Shown here: one piece after another, positions 57,368 through 64,000 of the stretch
How the letters are laid out: the number at the start of each line of letters is the position of its first letter
Numbering within the stretch: the stretch's first letter is position 1
Assembly: GCF_040581405.1 (NCBI RefSeq)
Contig: NZ_CP137159.1
Coordinates: forward strand, 1 to 64,000
Length of the DNA: 64,000 nucleotides
Origin: Komagataeibacter sucrofermentans DSM 15973
GTDB lineage: Bacteria; Pseudomonadota; Alphaproteobacteria; Acetobacterales; Acetobacteraceae
Reading direction: 5' to 3'
Notes under the pieces: generated by a model
Database searches by the model: none
Told to the model about the DNA's origin: nothing
What the model saw: the letters and a program-made list of their open reading frames with translations, nothing else
Translations under genes and position numbers: made by a program

Positions 57368-58549
57368 CTACTTTGGCAGAATACGTTTTGGGGTCTGGAG
57401 TAGAAGGTTTCCACAGTGCGGGCATTGCCCGATAGGTGGTCGCAGGATGCGATCAAGAATGGCCTGTCGTATTGCTGGCAGACTGGGCTGTGGTGGTGGG
57501 CCGGTGACTCTTTTTTCCCGTCCGACCGCCGTGAGGCGCCGGGAGTGGAGAAAGGCGTAGGCCATCATGGGCATCAGGGCGTGCCAGTGCAGGCCTGCCC
57601 ATGATCGCCCCTCAAAGTGATCGAGGCCCAGTTCCTCCTTGAGTTGCTGATGCGCCTGTTCGCAAACCCATCGGGCCTTGATCGCAGCGGCAGTAGCCTG
57701 AGGGAGGTGTCGGCAGACAGGTTGGACAGATACCGGTGGAACGGTGCTCGCCAATCAGCCAGACTTCATCCCCGGGCATATGCTGGGTCGTCCGGCCAGC
57801 GTTTGGTCCCACGACGCCAGTTGACCCTGCGCCATGTTGCAGTTTCCAGTATCTTATGGGCAGGAACGGATTGCTGTTCCGGTACCGGATGTATCCGGGA
57901 TGGGCCGCGCTTTCTGGCCGGGAAAACCAGCTCCACATCGGGGGAATAGACTTTCTGATGACGTGGTATCCCGACTGCCCAGCGCAGGTTCCGCACGCTC
58001 AGAGCCTGACGGAACCGGGCAGACAGGCATAACCGGCATCCGCAAGAACACAGCCAAAACGGACACCTGCGGCACAGAGGCGATCAATCTTTTCGATAGC
58101 CATCTCCGGTTTGGTCCTGGAGCCCTGATGTTCCAGTGGAATACCGGCCCGCTTCACACATGCCGGATCCGCTGTCCAGATGTCGGGCCGGAACAGACGG
58201 GGTGACAACATCAGTGGCACTTCTCACTCGAAGCCAGTGTCACGGACACCAATGTCTGACAATTTGCTTTCTTGCCCAGGGTCGAAGCATCTTGGGGCGC
58301 CACGCCAACAGAATGTTCTCCCTTCTTGGGAAGGGAGGTATCATCAATGATCATCCACGAACGCTCGCCGCCCACCAGATGGTCAGCATGATGCCACAGA
58401 GCAGCCTCAAGTGGCGCACTGTCCCACACACCGGCACTGACGAAATGATGCAGTCGGTCATAAGGGATATCGCCATTGCGTGCAGCCATGGGCTGCACGC
58501 TCGTGCGGTCACCAGGTCCGATCAGGCCTGCAATATAAACCGGACACAT
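57368..58549 (-). pseudogene. IS701-family transposase with several frameshifts
   Basis: Four successive minus-strand frames together cover most of an IS701-type DDE transposase. The N-terminal part (MIIDDTSLPKKGEHSVGVAP) contains the first catalytic Asp. The middle (CVLADAGYACLPGSVRL), the strand with RNLRWAVGIPRHQKVY and the C-terminal part (QAHQQLKEELGLDHFEGRSW) are each in a different frame. It is therefore inactive. Confidence 0.75.
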
Positions 58550-58564
58550 CGCCCGCTGCGCTTT

Positions 58565-58672
58565 GTGACCCAGTGCGACCAGATACGACCGCTGCGCTCA
58601 TACATTCATGTCTGCAATCCACATCGCAGCAAGAGCTTCATCTTCTATCTCAAAGAATGAGTCCTGAGCCTA
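58565..58672 (+). pseudogene. IS5-type transposase C-terminal scrap
   Basis: A short stretch encodes CDQIRPLRSYIHVC in one frame and RYDRCAHTFMSAIHIAARAS in another. It ends with the same inverted end (58657-58672) as the other IS5 elements in the window. Confidence 0.6.
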
Positions 58673-58689
58673 GAAAGGGCACAGGCACG

Positions 58690-59014
58690 GCGTTCACTAC
58701 GGGCCAGAGCCTCCTGAATGTGTCGGACCGCCTGCCGCGAAGCAGCAGGCGTCACCACTTTTTTCAACAATTTCCTTTAGCGCTGCATTATCCAGCATGG
58801 CATCTGCCAGAAGACGTTTCAGGCGACTGTTTTCACTTTCCTGCGCCTTCAGCCGTTTGGCCTCGGACACCTCAAGACCTCCATGGCGGGTTTTCCATTA
58901 GAAGGTCGCGTCACTGATCCCGTGTTTTCGGCAAAGATCAGAGACCTTCAGACCAGATTCCTGTTCCTTCAGGATCCCCATGATCTGCTCTTCCGTATAG
59001 CGACTGCGTTTCAT
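58690..59014 (-). pseudogene. IS3-family OrfA relic
   Basis: The minus strand begins MKRSRYTEEQIMGILKEQES, the typical IS3 OrfA start, and continues VSDLCRKHGISDATF to an in-frame TAA. It then reads WKTRHGGLEVSEAKRLKAQE, which matches the OrfA fragment at about 12.7-12.9 kb. OrfB is missing. Confidence 0.7.
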
Positions 59015-59283
59015 CCGTCCGTATTCTTATCGATCGGCCTCTACTTTCAAATGGGCACATTTTCGGGGGGCACGTCACTCGGCTTGCGGCCCGGTACCGC
59101 TCGCACTCATAAGCGCCGTGTTTGGTGAGGCCATATCAGCTGTCGCCCAGCAGGTGATAAATGTGGGTGTTCTGGTTGAACCACAACACAGTGTCGCCGG
59201 GGCAGAATGGAATGATCTGGCTTCCGGCCTCAAAAGTGAGCCAAGCTACCATAATGATGGGTGCGGTCATAAATATATAGAAT

Positions 59284-59313
59284 AAGGATATCATATAATT
59301 TAGGCTTATCCTT
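59284..59313. promoter_or_regulatory. Inverted repeat in the luxR promoter region
   Basis: AAGGATA (59284-59290) and TATCCTT (59307-59313) enclose TATAATTTA, which could be the -10 element. It lies 28 bases before the LuxR gene and may be an operator. Confidence 0.4.
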
Positions 59314-59340
59314 GAATGGCATCATGGGGCAACGCAATAG

Positions 59341-60051
59341 ATGGCGGGATTAACAATCGACCTCCTATCGAAGCTGCATGACTTCGAGAACGCAAGCACT
59401 AAACACGATCTTCTAACCGCCTACCTTGACGCCGCCTTGACCGTTGGCGGCGTCCATATAACCATTGTGGAATTAAATAGGACTGAAGATCCTAAGGAAA
59501 ATTTTATACATGTCGGCTACCCAGAGGCATGGGTAAATTTTTATATTGAGAATGATTACATAAGTTCTGATCCAATAATAAAAAAATCTAGATTTATGAG
59601 TCATCCGTATTTCTGGCATGAAATTCACAATATAAACCAAAAAGAAAAAAAGATAATCAGGGATGTATCAGAATTCGGTATAAAAAAAGGAATGACAATA
59701 CCATTCCATACACATGACAGATTGGTTTATGCCATATGTTTTGCATTTACAGACAAAAACGTAGATCAAGAAGTTGAAATTTATCTGCGTGCCTTATCTA
59801 ATTTTTTCATTGCCAGTTATAAAAAGCTGGATGAACCGGCAGATGTGTTGGACCCTATTCTTACCCCGCGTGAAAAAGAATGTCTGAGATGGACAGCCAA
59901 GGGTAAAAGCTCATGGGAAACCGGGATGATTGTTGGTGTCAGTGAGAGAACCGTTAATTTCCATATTAACAATGCACTGCTGAAGCTGAAATGTACAAAT
60001 CGTATCATGGGTGTGGTGAAGGCCATCTGCGCCGGTCTGATTGAACTGTAA
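59341..60051 (+). CDS. LuxR-family quorum-sensing regulator (autoinducer-binding type)
   Basis: Transcription factor of 236 residues. The N-terminal domain keeps the acyl-homoserine-lactone pocket residues: W64, Y68, D77 and P78 (in WVNFYIENDYISSDPI), W92, and the Gly near 113-117. The C-terminal HTH_LuxR domain spans about 174-235 (PREKECLRWTAKGKSSWETG, VSERTVNFHINNALLKLK). Lengths and residues fit a true AHL receptor like GinR of Komagataeibacter. No luxI gene lies next to it in this window. The gene is AT-rich compared with neighbours, which suggests transfer. A near-perfect lux box follows its stop codon. Confidence 0.9.
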   Translation: MAGLTIDLLSKLHDFENASTKHDLLTAYLDAALTVGGVHITIVELNRTEDPKENFIHVGYPEAWVNFYIENDYISSDPIIKKSRFMSHPYFWHEIHNINQKEKKIIRDVSEFGIKKGMTIPFHTHDRLVYAICFAFTDKNVDQEVEIYLRALSNFFIASYKKLDEPADVLDPILTPREKECLRWTAKGKSSWETGMIVGVSERTVNFHINNALLKLKCTNRIMGVVKAICAGLIEL

Positions 60052-60052
60052 A

Positions 60053-60072
60053 ACCTGTCAGACCTGACAGGT
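60053..60072. promoter_or_regulatory. lux box (LuxR-type operator)
   Basis: ACCTGTCAGACCTGACAGGT is a 20-base palindrome with 9-bp perfect arms around AC. It shares ACCTGT...ACAGGT with the canonical Vibrio lux box. It begins one base after the luxR stop codon and lies 58 bases before the likely start of the first small gene, so it can activate that gene in cis. Confidence 0.8.
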
Positions 60073-60130
60073 AACCTGACTGTCGATTTTCATGAATAAT
60101 CCTCTTACCCAACAGCAAGAGGGCGTATCC

Positions 60131-60343
60131 ATGATCGAAGCCGTAACCGCGTCCTCAATAATGACAGCATTGAGCACCAGAATGCAGCATAACAATATGA
60201 ATGAAGATACGAAAACGAAAGCAAATGATATCAAAGCCGCGTTATCGTTTCTGCGCGAAGAAGCGAGAAGGTGCGGCCTAACACAGACTGATAACTCGCT
60301 CTCCATCACAGAAATAATAATTAATATTGAAACAAATAAATAA
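60131..60343 (+). CDS. Small hypothetical protein downstream of a lux box
   Basis: A 70-residue protein from the ATG at 60131, preceded by AGAGGG at a suitable distance. A longer start at 60092 (83 residues) has no ribosome binding site. The product is helical and polar (ALSTRMQHNNMNEDTKTKAN, DIKAALSFLREEARRCG), has no signal or membrane segment, and I do not recognise a family. The position directly after LuxR and its lux box recalls the small GinA proteins of Komagataeibacter quorum sensing. I cannot claim homology by eye. Confidence 0.6.
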   Translation: MIEAVTASSIMTALSTRMQHNNMNEDTKTKANDIKAALSFLREEARRCGLTQTDNSLSITEIIINIETNK

Positions 60344-60364
60344 AATTTTAAGAGGAGTAGTAAA

Positions 60365-60541
60365 TTGTTTATCCGCGACGGTGATATTGAATACCTCGCA
60401 AAGAAACTGTTCTCACAACGCTATCCATTTCGAAAATGGGAGGTCGCGTCGAATTTGACATCCGGTGGCGCTACAGAAGATGAAAAGGAAAAGTTTATGG
60501 ATATGGCCCGGCGTCAATTATCAAGCTGGCATCCGGTGTAA
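60365..60541 (+). CDS. Very small hypothetical protein with TTG start
   Basis: A 58-residue frame begins with TTG at 60365, with a strong AGAGGAG at 60351-60357. The product (FIRDGDIEYLAKKLFSQRYP, then a polar middle and DMARRQLSSWHPV) is soluble and of unknown family. It is 21 bases after the previous small gene, so both could be on one lux-box-driven transcript. The strong ribosome binding site and clean frame argue that it is real. Confidence 0.55.
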   Translation: MFIRDGDIEYLAKKLFSQRYPFRKWEVASNLTSGGATEDEKEKFMDMARRQLSSWHPV

Positions 60542-60902
60542 GTTATAGGTCGCTCCACCCGAAACCGCCTAGTTTTCTACACGATCAACTCACGCTTCCT
60601 CATCTTCTTCTCCCTCAGCGGCATGACCTGCCTCCGTCGCAGCAAGTTCTGCCGCGCCCGCTCGACGCGAGGGCAGGTGCCCCGGTTCTTCTTGATATTC
60701 AGCAGGAACAGGACCGCCTTCATCTTGGCATGCAGGTTGTCCGGCTCGGCCTGATCGATCCGGTCCTACCCGCTACAAGTTCAATTACTGGCGGCATCGC
60801 GAATATGCTGGGCACATTCTGAACGACCTGACAGTTCGAGCGAGCCATCCAATGACTACAGGCTTAAAGATAATTTGTAAGATATGACCCTAAATTAAAA
60901 TT
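60542..60902. other. Mixed intergenic region with an unidentified degraded coding fragment
   Basis: On the minus strand, from about 60764 down to 60577, a frame encodes a basic tail (MKAVLFLLNIKKNRGT, then RRRQVMPLREKKMRKRELIV) with no start codon visible. It may be the end of a lost gene or transposon. Otherwise nothing is recognised. Confidence 0.35.
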
Positions 60903-61724
60903 TTATTTAAAGTTTTGTTTACTTTTTCTGTGCCGCATCCATCTTGCTGTATCAATAACAAAATGTGGAAGTATGTTCCGCATGAATATTTCTGCCATCT
61001 GCATGGTCGATTGTCTGCTGTTGGATAGATAGATCGTGCTGTTTGCCGTCCTGTCGGCTTTTATTTTTGGTGCCGTATAAAAATATGTAATGAGTGTCCG
61101 CCGTAGATACCCTTCTTGCGCGCCCTGGGGGTGTCCATGCCATGAATCAGGCGACTGGAGCATGAGAACGCTGCGCCCAAACTGGGGAACAATTTTTCTG
61201 ATAGGTCGGGTTGGATTTTTCTGCCATAGTTCCAGTAGGCCGCCATATTCTGGCTTCCAGTCATGATTGAGGTAAGTCAGCAAAGCCAGGCGATTTTCAA
61301 GACACGTATGGGGGTGATAACGAAAATCGGTATGAACCTGAAAATGTCCCTGCCCCGCGACTTCGTGCATGCCGCCCCCATAAAGATAAGGGTCGGGAAG
61401 CAGATTCATGATTCCTGTCAATCTGGTCAGTAGCCGGAGGAACGGTGCACCGTTCACAATATCAAAATATCGTTGTATTGCAGCAGGCATGACGGATTGT
61501 GTGCTAGTCGAGCGCTTTGACTGAAGCTGGTTCTGGAATACATTTACATTGTTTACGTGATCGAGATTAAAGGCCTGCAACGCTTCGTTCAGCAGGGAAT
61601 CACAGAACATTCCGTCCATGACCAGATGTGGAAATGGCCTGGCTGTCTTGAACTCTTGCGCAAGACTGTTCATCCGGGAAGTATCGGACCAGTCCATTCT
61701 TTTTAACAGGGGTACGTACGACAT
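60903..61724 (-). CDS. Prolyl-4-hydroxylase-like 2OG-Fe(II) oxygenase
   Basis: Predicted cytoplasmic dioxygenase of 273 residues. The iron ligands appear as H131 and D133 (in HFQVHTDFRYHPHT) and a distal His at 196 or 198 (SPDSWHGHPQG). The 2OG-binding Arg is in RRTLITYFY. The region YLNHDWKPEYGGLLELW matches the P4Hc-type fold (2OG-FeII_Oxy_3/4). Such enzymes hydroxylate protein side chains or small metabolites. It is separate from the lux-box unit and in the opposite direction. The substrate is unknown. Confidence 0.82.
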   Translation of the reverse strand: MSYVPLLKRMDWSDTSRMNSLAQEFKTARPFPHLVMDGMFCDSLLNEALQAFNLDHVNNVNVFQNQLQSKRSTSTQSVMPAAIQRYFDIVNGAPFLRLLTRLTGIMNLLPDPYLYGGGMHEVAGQGHFQVHTDFRYHPHTCLENRLALLTYLNHDWKPEYGGLLELWQKNPTRPIRKIVPQFGRSVLMLQSPDSWHGHPQGAQEGYLRRTLITYFYTAPKIKADRTANSTIYLSNSRQSTMQMAEIFMRNILPHFVIDTARWMRHRKSKQNFK

Positions 61725-61812
61725 CTGCTATCCTAATAATAGCCTTTCCAGGTACGGCAGAGTATCAGAATTTTTTTTAGTGAATCCTATCTGCTGCGTA
61801 GACAAGGAAAGT

Positions 61813-62427
61813 TCAGAAGGGACTTCGATTCTGTATCTGTGACGATGCGACTACATATTTATGATGTACTGTTTCAATATGACACCACGCCTCGCCATAT
61901 TTGGCAGGAATGGTGCCCTTGCCGGCCAAGGTATTCAGCATGCTTTCCAGTTCCGGGAGGAGAAGGGCATGGTCCTGCAGGGGGGCCATCAGTGGCACCT
62001 TGTAGGGGAGCAGGAAATGGCCCGTCACGGGAACGGGGGTTCCGTCCTGTGTCGGTAATGGATCATTTATGGTGGTGCTGACGACCTCTGCCAGTTTCAG
62101 GAAACTTTGCAGGAAATCATTATTATAGGCAAAATTTCCAGCCCCACCCTGCGACCGGATTTCTTTTTCGGGAGAAGGCGCATTGATCCACGCGATGTAA
62201 TGTTTAGCATGTAAGGTATGCAACCCGTCTGCGCTGGCAAATATGTGGTCAATCTCCACACGTTCGTCTGTACCAACTGGCAAGATAATGCCATGCATTA
62301 CGGGTAGGCCACTTGCCACAAGCATCTGCGCAACGGGATCATCCGCGGCAGGCTCGCCGCATAGTTTCTGCCACAGGGTGGCATCTCTATCTGCGGGGAA
62401 ATCTGGATTGCGGTGTGCACGTGTCAT
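61813..62427 (-). CDS. NERD-like (nuclease-related) domain protein, probably inactive
   Basis: A 204-residue soluble protein. Residues about 48-80 follow the NERD pattern (MHGIILPVGTDERVEIDHIF, GLHTLHAKHY). The core acidic site, normally ExK in a VxETKxY motif, reads LHAKHY, so the Glu appears to be His. The C-terminal half (FLKLAEVVSTTINDPLPTQD) is not recognised. NERD proteins are thought to process DNA. The altered motif argues against nuclease activity, and the assignment is tentative. Confidence 0.5.
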   Translation of the reverse strand: MTRAHRNPDFPADRDATLWQKLCGEPAADDPVAQMLVASGLPVMHGIILPVGTDERVEIDHIFASADGLHTLHAKHYIAWINAPSPEKEIRSQGGAGNFAYNNDFLQSFLKLAEVVSTTINDPLPTQDGTPVPVTGHFLLPYKVPLMAPLQDHALLLPELESMLNTLAGKGTIPAKYGEAWCHIETVHHKYVVASSQIQNRSPF

Positions 62428-62495
62428 GTCCGGTCCTGCAACAGATAAAGCTCCAAATCCGATAAGAAGGCTTTTATTGTAAAGAATTGGTAACC

Positions 62496-62510
62496 GGGGA
62501 GCGTCTCCCC
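62496..62510. terminator. Short GC hairpin after the GGDEF-EAL gene
   Basis: A 6-bp stem, GGGGAG/CTCCCC with a 3-base loop, lies 28 bases past the gene's stop. It has no T-run and is a weak candidate terminator. Confidence 0.3.
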
Positions 62511-62537
62511 TTCGTCACGCCGCTATTAATGTCCGTC

Positions 62538-64000
62538 TCATGCAGCATCATGCTGGCTGCCGGGCTGTGAGCACCCGGTATCGGGGGGCGCCTGCAGCCA
62601 TGCTTCAAGATCCCGCGCATCCAGGGGCCTGGAAAAGAAATATCCCTGTATCACGTCGCAGTTGATCTGCCGGAGCAGGTCAAGCTGTGCCTGCGTTTCC
62701 ACGCCCTCCGCCACCACGGTCATGCCCAGGCTCCGCCCGATACGGATGATGGCGGTGACCACAGAGTGAACCTTGCCCGTCGGTTCAAAGCCATCCATGA
62801 AGCTCCGGTCAATCTTGAGCTCGTTAAGTGGCAGGTTTGCAAGGTTCGACAGGCTGGAAAAACCGGTTCCGAAGTCATCCATGGAGAGCCCGATGCCCAT
62901 GGCCCGGATCGCCTGAGCGGCGATGAGGGTCTGATCGTAATTTTCTATCATCGCACTTTCCGTCAGTTCGATGGTCAGACGATATGGGGGAATGCCACTT
63001 TCGTGCAGAATCTCGCCAATCAGGCGTGGCAGGTCGGGATTTCTGAAATGCAACGCGGATATGTTGACCGATACGACCGGAACGTCCACCCCTGCCTGCA
63101 TCCATAGGGCCATCTGTCGACAGGCCGTCTGCAGTGACCACAGCCCGATTGCCTCGATCTGTCCGGTTTCTTCCGCCAGGGGGATAAAACGGCCCGGTGA
63201 TATCATGCCCAGGGCAGGATCGGTCCATCGTGCCAGGGCTTCCACCCCTTCCAGCCGGCCGGTCGCGGCATGGACCTGCGGCTGGTATACCAGATAGAGC
63301 TGGTCCGTCCTGATTGCCTCCTTCAGCGCGTTGCCCAGCAGGATCTGGTCCGCCGCCTGCCGGTTCATTTCCTCGCTGAAGAAACGGTAGCAGTTACAGT
63401 CGGCATTCTTCGCCTGCGACAGGGCCGTTTCTGCCTGCTGCATGAGTATTTCCGTCTCCCGCCGGCCGCCGTCATTATCCGCAATGCCGATACTGGCCGT
63501 AATGGTAACAGGAACCTCGTCAATCACGACCGGCTCCGCTACGGCTTTCATGATGGCATCGGCCAGTGCCGTGGCCCGTTCCACCCCACCGGTCGTGATC
63601 AGGGTGAATTCGTCTCCCCCGCTGCGGGCCAGCAGGTCATCACTGGAAATGAGGCCGGATAGCCGCCGGGCCAACGCAGCTAGCAACATGTTGCCTGCCG
63701 GGCGTCCCAGTCCGTTATTGATGGCCCGGAACCGATCCAGGTTGATGATCAGGGCCAGCAGGTTTTCATGCCGCGCGCGTGCCGCCCGCCGCCTGATACC
63801 GTGCCGCAACCCGGTCCGATTGGGCAGGCCCGTCAGGGTGTCATACTGCGTAAGCCGCGCGATATCCTCACGCGAGCGCTGCTGTTCGATGGCAAGCGCG
63901 CATAGATGCAGGCAGGCATCAGCAATCCGCCGGTGCCATCTGCCCGGTGCGCGCTTGGCACGGAAATAGAAAGCCAAGCTGCCGCCTACCCGGCCGTCAC
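62538..64000 (-). CDS. GAF-GGDEF-EAL cyclic-di-GMP enzyme (5' end beyond window)
   Basis: Cytoplasmic protein that may make or break the second messenger cyclic di-GMP, which in this group controls cellulose production and surface attachment. The frame remains open to the window edge, with a GAF-like end (DGRVGGSLAFYFRAKRAPG). The GGDEF domain keeps the active motif in ARSGGDEFTL. The EAL domain keeps EGVEALARWTD, with later EAL-family signs such as SMDDFGTGFSSLSNLANLPL and VVAEGVETQAQLDLL. Both catalytic motifs look intact, so it may be bifunctional. The N-terminal sensor is cut off. It stands alone on its strand here. Confidence 0.9.
   Translation of the reverse strand, partial: DGRVGGSLAFYFRAKRAPGRWHRRIADACLHLCALAIEQQRSREDIARLTQYDTLTGLPNRTGLRHGIRRRAARARHENLLALIINLDRFRAINNGLGRPAGNMLLAALARRLSGLISSDDLLARSGGDEFTLITTGGVERATALADAIMKAVAEPVVIDEVPVTITASIGIADNDGGRRETEILMQQAETALSQAKNADCNCYRFFSEEMNRQAADQILLGNALKEAIRTDQLYLVYQPQVHAATGRLEGVEALARWTDPALGMISPGRFIPLAEETGQIEAIGLWSLQTACRQMALWMQAGVDVPVVSVNISALHFRNPDLPRLIGEILHESGIPPYRLTIELTESAMIENYDQTLIAAQAIRAMGIGLSMDDFGTGFSSLSNLANLPLNELKIDRSFMDGFEPTGKVHSVVTAIIRIGRSLGMTVVAEGVETQAQLDLLRQINCDVIQGYFFSRPLDARDLEAWLQAPPDTGCSQPGSQHDAA

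Follow-up and report, generated by a model that had tools for sequence, protein, structure and literature searches.

Comparison of a lux locus in Komagataeibacter sucrofermentans DSM 15973 with its counterparts across the genus indicated, with a probability that we put at about 85%, that the locus is what remains, with the receiver side only, of the known GinI/GinR type of quorum-sensing system, arranged as ginR, a deleted ginI, orfA and ginA. It almost certainly arose by a deletion within ginI (luxI).

The window (the whole 64,000-nucleotide stretch analysed) is part of C3, a 197-kb contig of the source genome (G000), which was represented here by a single assembly and comprises 3.44 Mb in five contigs, with an estimated completeness of 99.99%. 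The genus comparison covered 18 other Komagataeibacter genomes (19 with the source genome), seven of which carry luxI, specifically K. xylinus CGMCC 21569 (G003), G004, K. nataicola (G006), K. xylinus K2G30 (G008), K. diospyri (G011), the type strain of K. europaeus (G012), and G013. In a comparison of the window with PLSDB, made to tell plasmid from chromosome, the best places in all 10 matching records were confined to an IS-like sequence of ∼77-84 bp at 59000-59083. This sequence matches plasmid stretches, some of them annotated as IS3 family transposase, and the region 57368-59144, to the left of the point at which synteny with the two K. xylinus genomes starts (59145), appears by eye to consist of broken insertion-sequence fragments. 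Downstream of the lux locus, a 2OG-Fe(II) oxygenase-like protein is encoded on the minus strand (60903-61724).

The missing luxI and its deletion scar

A profile search with PF00765 (Autoind_synth) returned no match in the source genome and none in 14 control genomes; the model itself does work, with matches in 17 of 120 relatives, 15 of them over the cut-off. Within the genus, luxI was found in seven of the 18 other genomes and lies directly after luxR in all seven. When a relative's luxI was used for a DNA search, full-length or nearly full-length copies were recovered from these seven relatives; in the source genome only the last 40 coding bases were found (60150-60189), with no further copy or fragment in the assembly.

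The source genome is collinear with G008 and G003 at 59145-60149 (96.7 and 96.5%, respectively) and again at 60150-64000 (96.1 and 92.4%), and between these two blocks it lacks 568 bp, corresponding to 90% of luxI, which places the deletion scar at 60149-60150 relative to both genomes. On the plus strand, the scar is preceded by 19 nt of luxI counted from the start codon (60131-60149), with one substitution relative to G008, and followed by the last 43 nt of the gene including its stop (60150-60192), identical to G008; the remnants and the missing segment add up exactly to the full luxI of that genome (19 + 568 + 43 = 630 nt). No open luxI frame is left, nor the Autoind_synth domain by which a LuxI-type synthase is recognized. 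A substitution 8 nt before the scar is absent from all seven relatives, and no microhomology was seen at the join, with ACCG present on either side nearby. Because luxI is also present in more distant relatives, loss of the gene is a simpler explanation than gain.

The receptor and the lux box

The luxR gene, a ginR-type regulator of 236 amino acids, occupies 59341-60051 on the plus strand, ends with TAA at 60049-60051, and appears intact. The protein contains an autoinducer-binding domain (Autoind_bind, PF03472, E 1e-20) and a LuxR-type helix-turn-helix (GerE, PF00196, E 6e-17), both over the Pfam cut-offs, and no other autoinducer-binding protein was found in the source genome. Orthologs with 60-97% identity were recovered from seven of the 18 other genomes, the same seven that carry luxI, with G003 and G008 as the closest (96-97%); the remaining matches within the genus are paralogs or fragments (23-48%). 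Two adjoining luxR-like stretches in another genome, one with an in-frame TAG (G009:C3:306727-307430), possibly represent a broken luxR paralog.

All nine positions that are invariant in AHL-responsive LuxR proteins are kept, as judged from motif context in a mapping made by hand, for which the residues were placed in TraR numbering through alignments of LasR, QscR, and SdiA and by reference to TraR. The list of invariant residues is the one given in the accessible text of PMC4338825. The dN/dS of luxR is 0.14-0.15 between the source genome and G003 or G008, and 0.154 between G003 and G008.

A lux box, ACCTGTCAGACCTGACAGGT, lies one base past the luxR stop (60053-60072, plus strand). It is the sole zero-mismatch match to ACCTGTC-N6-GACAGGT both in the window and in the whole source genome, whereas the reversed pattern, used as a control, had no match in any of the 19 genus genomes; with up to three mismatches allowed, the window contains six sites versus 2.06 expected. 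The pattern is present at the equivalent place in six of the seven luxI-bearing relatives and therefore belongs to luxI, and on this comparative ground the box is the old luxI promoter box. The exception is G013, with the most diverged lux locus in the genus (on the 118-kb contig C2), where luxI and orfA are present, the box is degenerate, and no relative of the second small gene was found.

The earlier note on this DNA was correct in describing a luxR followed by a near-canonical lux box and in finding no luxI. Its proposal of a LuxR solo controlling microproteins stands in part: the locus counts as a LuxR solo by definition, because the genome search recovered no synthase, and both domains and the nine hand-mapped residues agree with the AHL type; however, it was not purpose-built, since the box was that of luxI and the first small gene is a chimera (see below). 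The note had also allowed that a luxI just outside the window might explain the box; none was found elsewhere, but an explaining luxI evidently did adjoin the box and has since been deleted.

Further candidate elements were sought around the box and elsewhere. AATAAT at 60095-60100 (plus strand) is a possible -10 element, guessed from its spacing to the box; a sigma-70 promoter scan of 59200-60700 listed no plus-strand promoter, this motif included. The Shine-Dalgarno-like AAGAGGG of the former luxI (60117-60123, plus strand) is apparent from both sequence and alignment. An RNA hairpin over it, suggested by a minus-strand match in a terminator scan, was rejected, as folds in five of eight genomes showed no clear gain over shuffled sequences (z -0.19 to -1.67). 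G004 has a second perfect box (C1:354254), to which the source genome offers a near match (C1:2140091) with 92% identity over the surrounding 3 kb. This box was likewise set aside; it lies inside a long open frame, by the look of its translation a polysaccharide-type epimerase, and is thus probably a coding coincidence. Looser matches to the box core numbered 138 genome-wide versus 108 for the reversed control, which is too near chance for further lux-box targets to be named.

Two small genes downstream of the scar

The earlier note had described two small genes with ribosome binding sites, one of them starting with TTG; both open reading frames exist and the second does start with TTG, but the first probably starts at 60131 and not at 60092. 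As now read, ORF1 encodes 70 amino acids (60131-60343, plus strand) and consists of the luxI start fused to a downstream gene, here called orfA, whose 53-amino-acid core spans 60182-60343 on the same strand. In all seven luxI-bearing relatives, a counterpart of orfA follows luxI; among the relatives, orfA is a separate gene (53-55 amino acids) with a start ATG overlapping the stop of luxI. In the 83-amino-acid form that begins at 60092, the beginning of the LuxI frame aligns with residues 1-23 and this separate gene with residues 19-83. Since 568 is 1 modulo 3, the frame opened by the luxI start codon now continues across the former overlap into orfA; of the three join phases tried, only the present one keeps orfA in frame with that start. 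By sequence, ORF1 is accordingly a chimera, created by the deletion, of the beginning of luxI and orfA. The longer form is unlikely because the frame from the matching ATG in G011 ends in TAG (the ATG with AAGAGGG in that genome corresponds to 60131), because the equivalent codon is GTG in G004, G006, and G012, and because no purine-rich ribosome binding site precedes 60092. In the alignments, orfA is conserved as a protein, with a dN/dS of 0.04 against both G003 and G008 (seven substitutions each), 0.07 against G011, and 0.26 against G012.

ORF2 (60365-60541, plus strand) encodes 58 amino acids, is preceded by a Shine-Dalgarno-like AGAGGAG (60351-60357, plus strand), and retains its TTG start in all six relatives that have the gene. 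The earlier note had suggested looking for the two small proteins next to luxR in related genomes; both recur near luxR, where they follow luxI: orfA in seven of the seven luxI-bearing relatives and, after it, ORF2 in six. In five of those six, a stop closes the ORF2 frame 15-21 nt upstream of the TTG; only in K. europaeus (G012) does the frame remain open to an ATG, which gives a protein of exactly 89 amino acids. According to the accessible text of PMC7889782, GinA of K. intermedius has 89 amino acids, is unique to acetic acid bacteria, and is encoded downstream of ginI, and the same length appears in the available portions of PMC5908849 and PMC6695853. The match to this published length suggests that ORF2 is ginA. 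No listed start of orfA gives 89 amino acids in any of the eight genomes; on the other hand, unrelated frames overlapping ORF2 reach 90 amino acids in G008 and 87 in G003, so that length alone is weak evidence for GinA. Taking position together with the one exact length match, we regard ORF2 as a probable ginA ortholog. The parallel with GinA drawn in the earlier note was thus apt, and it is probably one of orthology instead of analogy. If so, ginA may start at the TTG and encode 58 amino acids rather than 89.

The dN/dS of ORF2 is 0.07-0.08 against G003 and G008, with 8-9 substitutions each. ORF2 had no match in Pfam or NCBIfam (E ≤ 1) or PHROGs (E ≤ 0.1); ORF1 had weak matches only (E 0.03-0.07 in Pfam, NCBIfam, and PHROGs, including the single weak PHROGs match), none above a curated cut-off. 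Profiles of orfA and ORF2 were run against 150 genomes of the family from 102 genera, and among the matches listed only this genus was represented (G000, G013, and G018). The structure predicted for ORF2 consists of two helices modelled at moderate confidence (mean pLDDT 75.7) with no match in the PDB at E ≤ 0.001, and such a fold gives no mechanism for GinA. A diverged ORF2 paralog (41-44% identical) occurs elsewhere in seven of the 19 genomes, including the source genome, where it is a 92-amino-acid frame on the main contig (C1, around 929515); the 331-amino-acid open reading frame beside it resembles, by its translation, a ribonucleotide reductase small subunit.

Receiver function, alternatives, and significance

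The closest described counterpart is the GinI/GinR/GinA system of Komagataeibacter (Gluconacetobacter) intermedius NCI1051, which likewise combines a LuxR-type receptor with one or more small genes downstream of the synthase position, and whose GinA matches in length the 89-amino-acid ORF2 frame of K. europaeus. Unlike in that system, the synthase gene has lost 90% of its length here, and what is left of its start has been joined to orfA. Where a gin system has ginR next to ginI, the source genome retains just 19 nt and 43 nt of ginI, and the locus is therefore a derivative of the gin system and not a complete member. The origin of LuxR solos with conserved binding domains through loss of luxI has been proposed in the accessible text of PMC4338825. 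Solos of this kind, for example SdiA, likewise have a receptor without a synthase and relatives with both at the equivalent place, but here every base of the scar is still legible and the receptor remains joined to the former luxI operon. A cellulose-producing relative, G. xylinus CGMCC 2955, is also described as having LuxR solos (LuxR/AsaR), with luxR present and luxI absent, although that strain is reported to make AHLs (PMC5908849, PMC6695853, accessible text); the comparison is with the published description. No description of the scar or of orfA was found in the accessible literature on gin genes, Komagataeibacter quorum sensing, LuxR solos, and luxI loss, subscription papers lying mostly outside it, and the five quorum-sensing terms tried are absent from a comparative-genomics paper on the genus (PMC6528568). 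The locus is best classed as a LuxR solo that a still-readable deletion produced from a GinI/GinR-type locus, through a luxI-loss route that had itself already been proposed.

In the preferred reading, a single internal deletion of 568 bp removed ginI from a ginR-ginI-orfA-ginA operon and left standing the receptor, the lux box, the site where luxI translation began, and the two genes downstream. LuxR, still working, would bind long-chain AHLs from neighboring bacteria, and the AHL-bound receptor would sit on the box and turn on ginA together with the orfA fusion. Grown alone, the strain would leave the brake that GinA puts on acetic acid formation disengaged, like the published ginI knock-outs. 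That LuxR may answer the AHLs of neighbors is suggested by the nine retained residues and by a luxR dN/dS like that of the luxI-bearing pair. A low dN/dS is no proof of selection after the deletion, because most of the divergence may predate it and the small genes carry only 7-9 substitutions, and the deletion may be so young that decay does not yet show. From these sequences we give even odds that AHL from outside can still trigger the receiver circuit. The accessible text of PMC7889782 reports faster growth in ethanol medium and a higher output of acetic and gluconic acid for knock-outs of ginI or ginR; on these reports, the source strain would be expected to resemble a ginI mutant when alone and the wild type among AHL producers. 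The more specific proposal of a natural signal-negative, receiver-positive strain, in which a once self-stimulated brake is let loose only by neighbors' AHL and orfA is translated from the old luxI start, is speculative and, taken as a whole, rather unlikely.

A minority possibility is that the deletion broke the circuit and that LuxR and the small genes are functionless here, surviving only through recency. The deletion could indeed be recent, as the flanks are 96% identical to those of G008, and the orfA start no longer overlaps an open luxI frame, an arrangement that in the relatives points to translational coupling; however, luxR, orfA, and ORF2 contain no stop or frameshift, the luxR dN/dS is not raised, the box is intact, and the join leaves orfA readable from the luxI start codon, which the other two phases tried would not do. 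It is improbable that the strain makes its own AHL through another synthase family and keeps the circuit self-stimulated: G. xylinus CGMCC 2955 is AHL-positive with luxR alone found, according to the accessible text of PMC5908849 and PMC6695853, but LuxM-type synthases (PF17327) had no match in the 19 genus genomes, a weak negative given that no control genome matched either. A LuxR solo that evolved for the purpose of controlling two microproteins, possibly through a non-AHL ligand, would account for adjoining luxR, box, and small open reading frames in a genome where no synthase was found, but is highly improbable and, as to origin, largely refuted by the presence of luxI at this spot in all seven other genus genomes with LuxR, by the precise scar, and by the nine hand-mapped AHL-type residues. 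Also highly improbable is an assembly or laboratory artefact, with luxI present in the living strain or removed deliberately, which would draw on the reliance on one assembly and is opposed by the completeness and contiguity of that assembly, the failure to find a luxI copy or fragment elsewhere, a deletion length that does not divide by three as that of a usual designed in-frame deletion would, and the private substitution 8 nt before the scar.

The receiver-only relic would show at base level one way in which LuxR solos originate, with the synthase cut out and the receiver circuit left, and the gin operon of the genus appears to include a second conserved small gene, orfA, beside the probable ginA. 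A similar scar could explain the luxR without luxI reported in a related cellulose producer. The source strain and the two luxI-bearing K. xylinus strains represented here provide a natural comparison for the known influence of GinI on the formation of acetic acid and for its influence on cellulose, which is speculated on in the accessible text of PMC5908849. If the receiver still functions, scar-bearing strains would be free of the brake when grown alone but subject to it in the mixed communities of vinegar or kombucha.
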